Under the pieces are notes generated by a model, which did not search any database, had not been told where the DNA came from, and saw only the letters and a list, made by a program, of their open reading frames with translations. DNA of 64,000 nucleotides. Origin: Marinomonas hwangdonensis (GTDB taxonomy: Bacteria; Pseudomonadota; Gammaproteobacteria; Pseudomonadales; Marinomonadaceae). The DNA lies in NCBI RefSeq assembly GCF_003721245.1, contig NZ_RIZG01000001.1, positions 186,001 to 250,000 of the forward strand. Reading direction: 5' to 3'. Positions 1,527 through 5,304 of the stretch are shown one piece after another; the first letter of the stretch is position 1; every line of letters starts with the position of its first letter. Both the position numbers and the translations under genes were made by a program.

Positions 1527-1809
1527 GGTGCTATCCTTAAATGTTTGACGTCAATAAAGTTTAAACGGCGTCGCCCAACATACAGATCACTATTAAATCG
1601 AGCAACCCGTTAATCAGTGTCCATGATAGATGGGAATGGCTCAAACTAGGATTTTAAATGGAAAATTATTTATGGATGATTGATCTAATGTAAACACAAA
1701 AGCGATGAGGTAATAATCCTCAACGTATCCCGCTCTTGCTTCAATTCACCCGACCATAAAAGGTTTTGCTTGCGGCTTCTGATAGCGCAATTCCAGGCTG
1801 TGAATTATA
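1527..1809. other. Intergenic stretch without a recognisable gene
   Basis: About 280 bases between the secreted protein and the IS91 remnant. No reading frame of useful size and no family signal were seen. The part nearest the secreted gene should carry its promoter, but no clear -35/-10 pair was identified. The part from about 1740 on may be the decayed 3' end of the IS91-type element. Confidence 0.4.
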
Positions 1810-1851
1810 GGCGAGAACCGCCAACATACGAGTGGTCTCGCCTTATGTTGG
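1810..1851. repeat. Two interlocked inverted repeats (pseudoknot topology) at the IS91 remnant end
   Basis: GGCGAGAACC (1810-1819) is complementary to GGTCTCGCC (1834-1842) apart from one bulged base. CCAACATA (1821-1828) is perfectly complementary to TATGTTGG (1844-1851). The arms are ordered A-B-A'-B', so a single strand could fold as an H-type pseudoknot. It lies at the 3' side of the broken transposase, where IS91-type elements carry structured ends; that link is inference. Confidence 0.5.
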
Positions 1852-2100
1852 TGTGGCTCGGTGAATGGCATTTCGACCACGGAAAAGCACCAATGCGCCA
1901 GGTTCGATTGCCAACCTTTTTTCCGACACTCCAGAGCGGGTAATATAACGGCATAGCCTTTCGAGTTTACTTCTATCCTGTGCGTTGCTCATCATGACGC
2001 CTGCATGGAGACTAAAGCCTGCCACTTTTGTGGCACAGCCTAACGCAAGCCACTGCTCTGCCATAGGTGAAATGGTTTGCAAGACAAAGACCTTTCGTCA
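1843..2100 (-). pseudogene. IS91-family (Y2-type) transposase remnant, C-terminal part
   Basis: A fragment of a rolling-circle IS91-type transposase. Reading leftward from about 2097, the frame RKVFVLQTIS, then KVAGFSLHAGV, DRSKLERLCRYITR and VSEKRLAIEPG, matches the conserved C-terminal region of these transposases. In intact members the order is KVF-LQT, KVAGFSLHAGV, KLERLCRYIxRPxVSEKRL and then a LKTPYRDGTTH-like block. Here the last block appears only in another frame (EMPFTEPHQHK), so there is a frameshift, and the frame stops at 1843. The N-terminal two-thirds, including the catalytic tyrosines and the zinc-binding domain, is missing: at 2098-2103 the sequence switches abruptly to the stop codon of the AFG1-like gene. 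No N-terminal piece was recognised beyond that gene. Non-functional. Confidence 0.8.
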
Positions 2101-3594
2101 TTACCGTCCCCATTCCTTTCCACCCATTTCTACCAACCGAGACGCGGCTCGTCGAAAGGAAAAGGCGAGATCATTGGCTGACGAAAATTGTGCCAGTGAC
2201 ACGCCAATTCGACCCGTCGCCGACCACTCATAATATTTCCCCTCTTTGGTGCGAATCATGGTGGTCGCAAAGGAACTCGAGTTTCCTCCCTTCTCATTGA
2301 CAATCAATTCTTCATCTCCGTCACTGCTTTCGACTTGCGCTTCAAAATCAACAAACAATTCGTCGAGCGGGACTTGTGCCGCCAGCACCAAGCGGGTGCG
2401 AGATTCATAGCACGCGTCAATGAGGGTCACGAATCGTCGCGCTTCGTTGAGGTGATTGGCGTCAAGTTGGGGGACGCGTTCCATGATGATGACCGGAAAT
2501 CGGCGACACAGAGAAATATAATCGGCCGCCCCGAGCGGTTGGTAGCACAACTCGGAAAAGTCAAACCAGGCGCACCGTTCATTCAATCGGGCGACCTGGA
2601 CGGTGCGACCAAAGAGGACGGGAATGATCTCGGCCTCAGTTCCGGATGCAGTGCCACCAAATATTTCTTCCAACTGCGCCTGCATGTCCCTATTAATACT
2701 ATTATCGCCATGATCGTCCTTGTTTGACCAAAAATAGGATTGACCATCCGCTCGACTTTCGAGTCGATAATCCTTCTTAGAATCCTCCATGGAAATAATG
2801 TCGGACGTGTCTTTCAACATGTCGATGAATGGCAAAAAGAGGGAGCGGTTTATGCCTCCCTTATACAAGGCATCGGGGGCTCGATTCGAGGTGGCCACCA
2901 TCACGACATTCCAATCCAATAATAGTGAAAACAGTCGCTTCAAAATCATGGCATCGGCAATGTCTGTCACTTGAAATTCATCGAAACAGAGGAGTTGGGC
3001 TTCTTGTGCCAATTGTTGCGCAATGATGGGCAGTGCATCACCTCGTGGGTGCTTCTGTTTGTAGATAAAGATTCGATGATGGACGTCTAGCATGAATTCA
3101 TGAAAGTGGACGCGGCGTTTGGTCATCTTTGTGTGTTTATGGCTATTATTATTACAGCAAGAATCATCATCAGGAACAGTAACCGACGCGTAAAAGAGAT
3201 CCATTAAAAAGCTTTTGCCGACCCCGACCGGTCCATAAATGTACATGCCTCGCGGTGGTGTACCAAAAAACCACAAATGTAACTTCTTTCGAAGAAAGGA
3301 CTGGGCGGATGCCATAGATCGCGCCAGTAACAGTGGACTGCTGCTTGTAGCGCTGCTCTCTGTCGGATCGTCGGTGCGTACGGGTACTGGTGGGAGCAAG
3401 GCAAGAGACTCGTGCAGGGCATCGAATTTTGCCGCCAGAGCGACTTGCGCGTCATCTCGTCGTACCTCCCCCGCGTCCACCTTGAGTTCATAAGCCGCTG
3501 CCACGGGTCCTGTCGAGAGGCACCGCCGAGCGACCCAATGTTGTGCTATTGTCTTCTTCATCATCATGATTGTCTTCATCGCTTTCTTCTTCAT
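2101..3594 (-). CDS. AFG1/LACE1-type AAA ATPase of eukaryotic (mitochondrial) type
   Basis: P-loop ATPase of the AFG1/ZapE family. Eukaryotic members sit at the mitochondrial inner membrane and help turn over respiratory-chain subunits; the bacterial relative is ZapE. The frame is open from 3747, but the protein probably begins at 3594 or at one of the Met codons down to 3561. These are followed by a basic, arginine/serine-rich stretch (KKTIAQHWVARRCLSTGP) like a mitochondrial presequence. Numbered from the 3747 Met: Walker A GPVGVGKS 172-179, a family HFHEFMLDVH block near 214-223, Walker B LLCFDE 252-257, then FQVTDIADAMILKRLF and VVMVATSNRAPDALY, all close to eukaryotic AFG1. Low-complexity insertions (DDDSCCNNNSH) are atypical of bacterial ZapE (about 370 aa). 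The C-terminus (FRRAASRLVEM) looks complete. No Shine-Dalgarno precedes the start, and codon use and base composition differ visibly from the neighbours. No introns. It may not be expressed here. Stramenopile/diatom origin is a guess; assembly chimera is the main alternative. Confidence 0.75.
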   Translation of the reverse strand: MKKKAMKTIMMMKKTIAQHWVARRCLSTGPVAAAYELKVDAGEVRRDDAQVALAAKFDALHESLALLPPVPVRTDDPTESSATSSSPLLLARSMASAQSFLRKKLHLWFFGTPPRGMYIYGPVGVGKSFLMDLFYASVTVPDDDSCCNNNSHKHTKMTKRRVHFHEFMLDVHHRIFIYKQKHPRGDALPIIAQQLAQEAQLLCFDEFQVTDIADAMILKRLFSLLLDWNVVMVATSNRAPDALYKGGINRSLFLPFIDMLKDTSDIISMEDSKKDYRLESRADGQSYFWSNKDDHGDNSINRDMQAQLEEIFGGTASGTEAEIIPVLFGRTVQVARLNERCAWFDFSELCYQPLGAADYISLCRRFPVIIMERVPQLDANHLNEARRFVTLIDACYESRTRLVLAAQVPLDELFVDFEAQVESSDGDEELIVNEKGGNSSSFATTMIRTKEGKYYEWSATGRIGVSLAQFSSANDLAFSFRRAASRLVEMGGKEWGR

Positions 3595-3818
3595 CGATTT
3601 ATCTTGTCCCGTGTGGCGCTGAGGCGGCGTAACAAACCTAAGTTGATTGTGTTTGTGATCATAGTTATACCAGCTCGTAAACGTTAACACCCACCTCCCG
3701 CCTCTTCTAGACTTTTGATCCCATGAGATTAAACAGTGACCCAGCAAAAAGGTTGTCGTTACCCGCTCTGAGACAACTGCATGATGTCGTTACGCCCAGT
3801 TCATACGCTTTCGAGTTT

Positions 3819-3829
3819 GGGGTCAGATC
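3819..3829. repeat. GGGGTCAGATC motif resembling ends of small IS200/RAYT-type elements
   Basis: The 11-base motif, preceded by GAGTTT and followed by an AT-rich stretch, recalls terminal sequences around REP-associated tyrosine transposases in marine gammaproteobacteria. No transposase reading frame or second copy was found in this window, so it is at most a remnant. It marks the point by which the sequence again looks bacterial after the AFG1-like gene. Confidence 0.3.
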
Positions 3830-3873
3830 AAAAACTTAATTATTTTGACGAATTAAAAATGAGCCGCCGCTCT

Positions 3874-3891
3874 ATACGTCAAATGACGTAT
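3874..3891. promoter_or_regulatory. Palindrome upstream of urtA, possible operator
   Basis: ATACGTCA-AA-TGACGTAT is a perfect 8+8 inverted repeat with a two-base spacer, about 130 bases before the urtA start. It is a plausible dimeric-regulator site for the urt/ure block. The regulator is unknown. No convincing sigma-54 or sigma-70 promoter was recognised beside it. A smaller hairpin (GAGGT ... ACCTC, about 3956-3972) lies nearer the start codon, probably in the leader. Confidence 0.35.
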
Positions 3892-4020
3892 CCCTGTAAG
3901 TCATTTCGCGCATACCTTTCTATCGTTGATTTTTTAATACTGGCTCTACGGATTTGAGGTTCTAAACACCTCACCTGAAGACTCAACAATATTCTAAATC
4001 ACAATAGGACGGCTCCAACT

Positions 4021-5304
4021 ATGAAAATCAAAACGCTTACTTCTGCGATTGTGCTCTCTGGTGCAACGCTTATTGCGCTTCCTTCGCTAGCAGCAGACAC
4101 AATCAAGGTCGGTGTGTTGCACTCCTTGTCTGGCACCATGGCGATTTCTGAAACCACGCTAAAAGACACCGTCTTGATGATGGTGGATGAGCAAAACAAA
4201 AAGGGTGGTTTGTTAGGTAAGAAGATCGAAGCTGTGGTGGTTGACCCAGCATCAAACTGGCCATTGTTTGCAGAAAAAGGTCGTGAGTTATTAACCAAAG
4301 ACAAAGTGGATGTGATTTTTGGTAGTTGGACATCGGTTTCTCGTAAATCGGTATTGCCTGTATTGGAAGAATTGAACGGTTTGATGTTCTACCCAGTTCA
4401 GTACGAAGGCGAAGAGTCGTCTAAAAACGTGTTCTACACAGGGGCGGCGCCAAACCAACAGGCGATTCCTGCGGTGGATTATTTGATGAACGATCTGGGT
4501 GTAGAGCGTTTTGTGCTAGCCGGGACAGATTACGTTTATCCACGTACTACCAACAAAGTACTTGAAGCCTATCTAAAAGGCAAAGGCGTTGCTGCCAGTG
4601 ACATCATGATCAACTACACGCCATTCGGTCATTCTGATTGGCAGTCGATTGTGTCTGACGTCAAAAAATTCGGTAGTGAAGGTAAGAAAACCGCCGTAGT
4701 TTCTACCATCAATGGTGATGCCAACGTGCCTTTCTACAAAGAATTGGGTAACCAAGGTATTTCATCGGAAGACATCCCTGTAGTGGCTTTCTCTGTAGGT
4801 GAAGAAGAGCTTTCTGGTTTAGACACAAAACCATTGGTGGGGCACTTGGCGGCTTGGAACTATTTCCAAAGCGTTGAAACGCCTGAGAACGAAGCCTTCA
4901 TCAAGGCTTGGCACGCATACACAAAAAATTCTGATCGTGTAACCAATGACCCAATGGAAGCCACTTATATCGGTTTCAAAATGTGGGCTAACGCGGTAAC
5001 GAAAGCAGGCACAACGGATGTTGATGCGGTTGAGCAAGCCATGATAGGTCAAACTGTCCCGAATTTAACTGGTGGTATTGCGGTGATGAATAAAAACCAC
5101 CACTTGAGCAAGCCAGTACTGATTGGCGAGATCCAAGACGACGGTCAGTTTGAAGTGGTTTGGGAAACCGATGGTGTGGTTGCGGGTGATGCGTGGTCTG
5201 ACTTTTTACCGGGTTCTAAAGATCTGATTTCAGATTGGACGGCGCCGATCAAGTGCGGTAACTACAACACCAAAACTAAGACGTGTTCTGGTCAGAATTA
5301 CTAA
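4021..5304 (+). CDS. urtA: Urea ABC transporter, substrate-binding protein
   Basis: Periplasmic urea-binding protein of the UrtABCDE high-affinity urea importer (branched-chain amino-acid/HAAT family). The 427-residue product starts with a signal peptide (cleavage near ALPSLAA-D, about residue 25). The mature start DTIKVGVLHSLSGTMAISE is typical of UrtA, and so are FGSWTSVSRKSVLPV and MFYPVQYEGEESS farther on. Length matches the family. A purine-rich AGGACGG precedes the ATG. It is the first gene of the cluster and is separated from urtB by a strong hairpin terminator, as expected for a binding protein needed in excess over the membrane parts. Nitrogen control is likely from family knowledge; the only candidate site seen is the palindrome at 3874-3891. 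Confidence 0.96.
   Translation: MKIKTLTSAIVLSGATLIALPSLAADTIKVGVLHSLSGTMAISETTLKDTVLMMVDEQNKKGGLLGKKIEAVVVDPASNWPLFAEKGRELLTKDKVDVIFGSWTSVSRKSVLPVLEELNGLMFYPVQYEGEESSKNVFYTGAAPNQQAIPAVDYLMNDLGVERFVLAGTDYVYPRTTNKVLEAYLKGKGVAASDIMINYTPFGHSDWQSIVSDVKKFGSEGKKTAVVSTINGDANVPFYKELGNQGISSEDIPVVAFSVGEEELSGLDTKPLVGHLAAWNYFQSVETPENEAFIKAWHAYTKNSDRVTNDPMEATYIGFKMWANAVTKAGTTDVDAVEQAMIGQTVPNLTGGIAVMNKNHHLSKPVLIGEIQDDGQFEVVWETDGVVAGDAWSDFLPGSKDLISDWTAPIKCGNYNTKTKTCSGQNY

Follow-up and report, generated by a model that had tools for sequence, protein, structure and literature searches.

A horizontally spread AFG1-type ATPase gene of mitochondrial-like make-up beside an ISCR transposase remnant in Marinomonas hwangdonensis

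The window (the whole stretch of 64,000 nucleotides analyzed here) contains on its minus strand an open frame of 548 codons at 2101–3747, which starts with TTG and encodes 548 aa. A sequence-only reading had singled out this uninterrupted frame as a eukaryotic-type AFG1 gene, and both the frame and the AFG1 motifs quoted there were recovered: the protein scores 269.5 bits with profile PF03969 (AFG1_ATPase; gathering score 27) and 318.2 bits with the ZapE model NF040713 (cut-off 140), compared to 443.2 bits for the native ZapE and 419 bits for an alphaproteobacterial ZapE (L101). The residues that we take to be the Walker A, Walker B and sensor positions are found among the invariant columns in an alignment of 19 sequences; as far as this alignment indicates, the catalytic residues of the family are conserved. 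The features of the locus are as follows:

1743–1922, minus strand: HalD-like Fe/2OG halogenase gene, 3′ end only, truncated by the cassette (its DNA matches the tail of the full-length gene in Marinomonas polaris at 92.8%)
1743–3853, minus strand: unit in common with M. polaris (window −1752 to +358 versus −1783 to +358 in the M. polaris locus L035, 94.0%)
1906–2097, minus strand: transposase fragment of ISCR clade Ia (IS91-like, Y2_Tnp), residues ∼290–361 of 509, adjoining the ATPase stop
2101–3594, minus strand: AFG1/ZapE-family AAA+ ATPase gene (PF03969; genus matches from residue 42–61; invariant motifs; dN/dS)
3595–3696, minus strand: remnant of an IS3-type (rve) transposase C-terminus, fused in frame into the ATPase gene
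3868–5304, plus strand: native Marinomonas flank, urtA and its upstream region (urtA named from the operon reading)

Residues 18–60 of the frame correspond to the end of 301-aa rve transposases in two genomes (G013 and G047; Pfam was run on the G047 copy), and 10 of the 11 other copies in the genus match the frame only from residue 42–61 onward. The eleventh copy, in M. polaris (L035/L006), has the transposase remnant in common with the window, with a TAG only there. Because of where the genus matches begin, the likely start of the ATPase gene is the ATG at 3594 (Met52), and the first 51 residues of the frame are read here as an IS3-type transposase remnant outside the gene; start codons of all copies were picked by rule from the sequence only. 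An Arg/Ser-rich, presequence-like N-terminus had been described for the frame: the start of the frame itself belongs to the IS3-type remnant, but a different stretch that begins at ATG 3594, MKKKAMKTIMMMKKTIAQHWVARRCLSTGPV, is presequence-like, with 8 basic and no acidic residues among its first 28. No AGGAGG-like box was seen by eye before 3594, in agreement with the earlier remark on the absent ribosome binding site. In the family consensus 5′ of the start a short frame, MLINSSGP, was noted by eye; its TGA overlaps an ATGATG start, a possible case of translational coupling. The window gene ends with TAA at 2101–2103; most other copies are one codon longer and end in CAA TGA. The base composition, said to be unlike that of the flanks, is indeed higher in GC than in adjacent 500-base windows (0.45–0.52 over 2001–3750 versus 0.39–0.44 to the left and 0.41–0.48 at 4–7 kb), but since values of 0.50–0.53 also occur at 11–13 kb, GC alone is not decisive for foreignness. 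Promoter-like sites were near the shuffled count (5 versus 3.3 ± 1.7), and terminator-like sites numbered 4 versus 2.7 ± 1.7 in shuffles.

The ISCR fragment next to the ATPase stop gives 27.9 bits with Y2_Tnp (cut-off 20.9) and 54 bits with NF052416, far below the whole-protein cut-off of 925; no other ISCR clade Ia match was found in this genome, nor, besides the same fragment, in M. polaris. The fragment, the ATPase gene and the IS3-type remnant lie between a halogenase tail, cut near 1920, and the urtA upstream region. The 32-aa tail alone yields no Pfam match; the HalD assignment comes from M. polaris, in which the full-length halogenase gene reaches 72 bits with PF23169 (HalD). A whole halogenase gene lies beside urtA in genome G037, and only the halogenase tail does so in G001. 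These arrangements show the insertion of the cassette into a HalD-like halogenase gene next to urtA. In M. polaris the 2.1-kb unit is found in other surroundings: around it lie a full-length halogenase gene and, on both sides of the cassette, a 522-bp direct repeat of the halogenase gene end (∼3053–3574 and 5737–6258 of L035, 93.1% identity); except for this second halogenase tail, the two stretches gave no further match. An initial candidate for this repeat, of about 178 bases, was dropped once 522 bp had been measured. Window positions 3850–4300 have a match in 41 of the 48 genomes of the genus; at 19 other loci the match begins at 3867–3875 in 18 cases and, in L175, in two pieces from 3871 and 3991. 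Position 3868 was considered as insertion border and dropped, as it may merely mark the start of the conserved urtA upstream region.

Three AFG1/ZapE genes are present in this genome of 3.46 Mb and 25 contigs: the window gene, a second ZapE-like gene and a native zapE, which was found at C23:116816–117898 and whose product is 33–36% identical to the window ATPase. The second ZapE-like gene (C1:107160–108269, 382 aa) lies outside the window and is distinct from native zapE; many genomes of the genus likewise give a weaker, second ZapE-like match. Bacterial ZapE and the ATPase family are alike in their AFG1/ZapE core, including the Walker A, Walker B and sensor residues. In contrast to bacterial ZapE, the family carries an insert of ∼57 aa near the C-terminus, an Asn/Asp-rich insert after Walker A and a charged N-terminal extension, occurs in a mobile context and forms a separate clade (100/100). 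The loop from RRF..D to SRL.EM measures 99–103 aa in 60 of 63 family copies (three escaped the pattern) versus 42–44 aa in bacterial ZapEs, of which 56 out of 61 could be measured and five escaped it, these 61 being sequences fetched for comparison and no random sample; the ∼57-aa insert is thus found in none of the 56 measurable bacterial ZapEs. In animal AFG1L a long loop precedes the last helix too. An N-terminus with no acidic residue and a net charge of at least +5 within 28 residues was observed in 33 of 63 copies versus 3 of 453 flanking ORFs. A predicted model of the window protein had a mean pLDDT of 66.4 and a pTM of 0.54; its core was better predicted than the inserts, both of which stayed below 50. 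Foldseek searches with this model gave DnaI, DnaC, IstB and DnaA-type AAA+ proteins as best matches over part of the chain. A sequence search of solved structures with the window protein returned nothing convincing (best E 0.074), and PADLOC gave one negligible match (E 0.0054). The earlier description of a foreign, intact gene holds, for a protein unlike native ZapE and with features absent from the bacterial ZapEs measured.

We found copies in 12 of 48 Marinomonas-group genomes (80–100% identical), some of which consist of one or few contigs, and at no fewer than 66 GTDB loci (L035–L100; 74–94% identical in the best segment) under 21 genus labels; the GTDB scan reported 334 relatives, of which 80 were kept, with patterns that favour close relatives. 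This distribution supports neither a transfer private to this genome nor, the gene being present in many assemblies, a chimeric contig. Where stated, the titles of the 66 loci name Gammaproteobacteria, one reading ‘uncultured proteobacterium’ only, and most of the genera are ones that we take to be marine or saline. In even samples the gene is rare, with copies in 2 of 369 Gammaproteobacteria and 3 of 398 Pseudomonadota, while in the family of G395 it occurs in 26 of 295 genomes. The other 14 of the 80 kept GTDB loci match at ≤44%. Neither for the 398 Pseudomonadota genomes nor among the 80 kept loci did the listed matches include one with an identity between 48% and 74%; next after the family come alphaproteobacterial ZapEs at ≤48%. 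Glaciecola sp. XM2 carries the cassette twice, in differing copies on separate contigs (L039, L049). Searches of viral contigs found no relative, and no copy was found on a phage or plasmid; these gave, besides two matches to the IS3-type stretch, only ordinary ZapE at <45%. The two matches are H78 (residues 19–100) and H79 (residues 18–51), the latter being the sole plasmid match at 60–80% identity. Our literature search, in the portions of papers retrieved, found no published description of the ATPase family.

Copies from different families reach 98–99% DNA identity; those of Nitrincola, Alishewanella, Rheinheimera, Saccharospirillum, Marinospirillum and Arsukibacterium are about 97–99% identical, and the stretch shared among near-identical copies extends no more than a few hundred bases beyond the gene. 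Between the window and Marinobacter goseongensis the ATPase gene is 91.0% identical versus 65–68% for three transport-operon pieces beside urtA. The GC content of the gene is 50.1 ± 1.0% in 58 copies, with flanks ranging from 38.8 to 61.1%. The gene tree splits Alteromonas and Glaciecola, with at least three changes each forced by starred branches, which by themselves are no proof of transfer. Within subgroups the neighbourhood is held in common (L036, L040, L041 and L050 in Marinomonas; L059, L062, L065 and L078 in Alteromonas), as vertical descent would give. Pairwise dN/dS among 63 full copies has a median of 0.28 (5–95% range 0.20–0.39; 1950 non-independent pairs). The identity across families, the host-independent GC content and the dN/dS of ∼0.28 together show that the ATPase gene has spread horizontally among its hosts and is under purifying selection. 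For the 33 full copies with an ISCR tail, whose DNA identity falls to 77.5%, the median is 0.30 (525 pairs); as they kept the tail, these copies most likely diverged in bacteria. No stop follows the chosen start in 61 of the 63 full copies. The other two, L079 and L080, have a stop in the N-terminal region, and a later start is possible; upstream or N-terminal stops were seen in L035, L075, L079 and L080. In the family of G395 there are stops in G897 and G808 and partial matches in G939, G1017, G1041 and G1063. The G660 copy is split across two frames.

The junction with ISCR sequence recurs: an ISCR tail, called present at ≥20 matches to a 26-base tail consensus, directly follows the stop in 34 of 62 copies versus 0 of 169 background positions. 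The ATPase gene is thus found where ISCR cargo lies, next to ISCR transposase sequence, and the preservation of the junction in these copies suggests ISCR capture. In a Paraglaciecola MAG contig (L051) transposase residues 377–515 lie upstream and residues 300–371 downstream of the gene, as if a circle of ISCR and gene had been opened inside the transposase gene, with breaks at residues 371 and 377. Fourteen other loci contain pieces of 31–223 bases of the spacer between the C-terminal transposase part and the gene. About +1 to +193 is absent from three Alteromonas copies (L059, L062, L065), and short GGCAATRACGA repeats border the gap in the manner expected of a deletion; the ISCR-containing form therefore looks ancestral. 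Against ISCR as the mover, no more than 34 of 62 copies keep the tail, and a search with the intact ISCR of G016 matched only 4 of 64 loci; the L051 fragment matched 10 of 64, in nine cases after the stop. At E 0.001, ISCR clade Ia matches occur in 4 of 48 genus genomes, three of which hold the ATPase gene; the 44 genomes without a match include 9 of the 12 gene holders, some of which do keep the short tail. No copy was seen directly beside an intact ISCR among the loci examined; in L049 an ISCR-like gene in two pieces lies ∼8 kb from the ATPase copy. The one intact ISCR of the clade that was checked for an accompanying ATPase gene is L116 (G016:C113:673–2199; 1144.5 bits), and the ATPase gene of that genome lies on a different contig.

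Two further border types were observed. In L055 (an Oleiphilaceae MAG) and L063, ∼45 bases of ISCR tail are followed by integron-integrase-like sequence; the piece at L055:2474–2890 gives 67.8 bits with PF00589 and 55.1 bits with TIGR02249, below its cut-off of 265, and a MAG titled Pseudomonas has DNA in common with this region. Repeats of the type GGTCGCAAAGCGAACATT were seen by eye at or near the cassette borders of L045, L047, L054, L057, L061 and L072 (Marinobacter group). As in ISCR elements that capture genes, clade Ia transposase sequence abuts the gene in many hosts, and on both sides in L051, but here the transposase is truncated; in the ISCR literature retrieved the cargo is antibiotic resistance genes, whereas here it is an ATPase. 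We infer that ISCR was the mover of the ATPase gene.

The family was placed with a tree whose 58 rows comprise 10 family members, 40 alpha-type and 8 gammaproteobacterial ZapEs. The family forms one clade (100/100) on a stem of 1.53 changes per column; it is separated from gammaproteobacterial ZapE (100/100), and falls among deep alphaproteobacterial branches, inside no sampled line. The ATPase gene is thereby no orthologue of gammaproteobacterial zapE, and a native zapE is present as well. For the sequence-only reading, which had named a position within bacterial ZapE as its refutation, the outcome is divided: the family does branch among alphaproteobacterial lines, but inside none of those sampled. 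One animal AFG1 sequence stands apart from the family when gammaproteobacterial ZapE is included and weakly joins it (62/53) when it is left out. The place of the family among these lines fits both a eukaryotic and an alphaproteobacterial source. According to the retrieved part of Pyrih et al. (2020, PMC7314023), eukaryotic ZapE/Afg1 is sister to, or within, alphaproteobacterial ZapE; that part contains no mention of a gammaproteobacterial group with eukaryotes. Mitochondrial AFG1/LACE1 (AFG1L) thus has its reported place in the same part of the tree, and resembles the family in its AFG1 core and, for 33 of 63 copies, in a presequence-like composition of the N-terminus, but the family is encoded in bacterial chromosomes. 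A eukaryotic origin is our leading, unproven reading; a diatom as donor, as had been proposed, has even less support.

A less probable donor than a eukaryote is an alphaproteobacterium, unsampled or evolving fast, in whose line the insert and the charged N-terminus would have arisen. The best prokaryotic matches outside the family are alpha-type ZapEs, the family branches among deep alphaproteobacterial lines, and PMC7314023, in the part retrieved, reports transfers of alpha-type ZapE to other Proteobacteria, Nitrosomonas among them, two Nitrosomonas sequences (L105, L108) falling among alpha-type ZapE in our tree as well. Against such a donor speak the empty range between 48% and 74% identity in both samples, the ∼57-aa insert, found in 0 of 56 measurable bacterial ZapEs, and the presequence-like N-terminus. 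That the gene is a neutral hitchhiker without function in bacteria, its low dN/dS a leftover from the donor, is unlikely: the ISCR-tailed copies combine a median of 0.30 with identities down to 77.5%, and nearly all full copies (61 of 63) are free of stops after the chosen start, even though the patchy presence, the composition unadapted to the hosts, the near-shuffled number of promoter-like sites and some damaged copies would suit such a gene.

The ATPase could also serve the mobile element itself, as the helper IstB does for IS21, instead of being a passenger. It is joined to ISCR sequence, DnaI, DnaC, IstB and DnaA-type proteins were its best Foldseek matches, and the shared unit contains only the ATPase gene; yet the transposase is truncated or lost while the ATPase stays intact, and the sequence match is to AFG1/ZapE, which makes this role very improbable. 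An assembly chimera or eukaryotic contamination, which the odd composition and the eukaryote-like protein might suggest, is practically out of the question: the same gene occurs in independent assemblies of named strains and in genomes of few contigs (G032, one contig; G037, five), and its junctions are with decayed bacterial mobile elements. For the window in particular, the contig is not considered chimeric here because the gene was found in many assemblies.

With moderate confidence we therefore favour a mitochondrial-like AFG1-type gene, most likely eukaryotic, that was fused once to ISCR, was scattered among Gammaproteobacteria and is kept by selection. A gene for an AFG1-type AAA+ ATPase, mitochondrial-like in its make-up and most likely from a eukaryote, would have been joined in a single fusion to the gene of an ISCR (IS91-like rolling-circle) transposase in a gammaproteobacterium. 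As an ISCR-borne single-gene cassette it would then have been scattered among mostly marine Gammaproteobacteria, probably via circular intermediates, with selection keeping the ATPase intact in its hosts; in this Marinomonas the cassette would have come to lie inside the broken HalD-like halogenase gene upstream of urtA. AFG1/ZapE interacts with Oxa1 according to the retrieved part of PMC7314023, and by analogy the product is probably an inner-membrane-linked ATPase that affects membrane-protein insertion or turnover; its partner would be the YidC/Oxa1 insertase or membrane proteases, and it would act alongside the resident ZapE. More tentatively, a nuclear gene for a mitochondrial ATPase, captured from a marine eukaryote by ISCR, may now be a selected mobile cassette that tunes inner-membrane protein insertion or quality control beside ZapE in marine Gammaproteobacteria. 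If the source is eukaryotic, the gene would exemplify a rare event, transfer from a eukaryote to a bacterium, here followed by wide success and with its likely vehicle, ISCR, still visible. The locus also places ISCR sequence beside cargo other than resistance genes in environmental bacteria, and two AFG1/ZapE proteins per cell would offer a natural test of the role of this ATPase.
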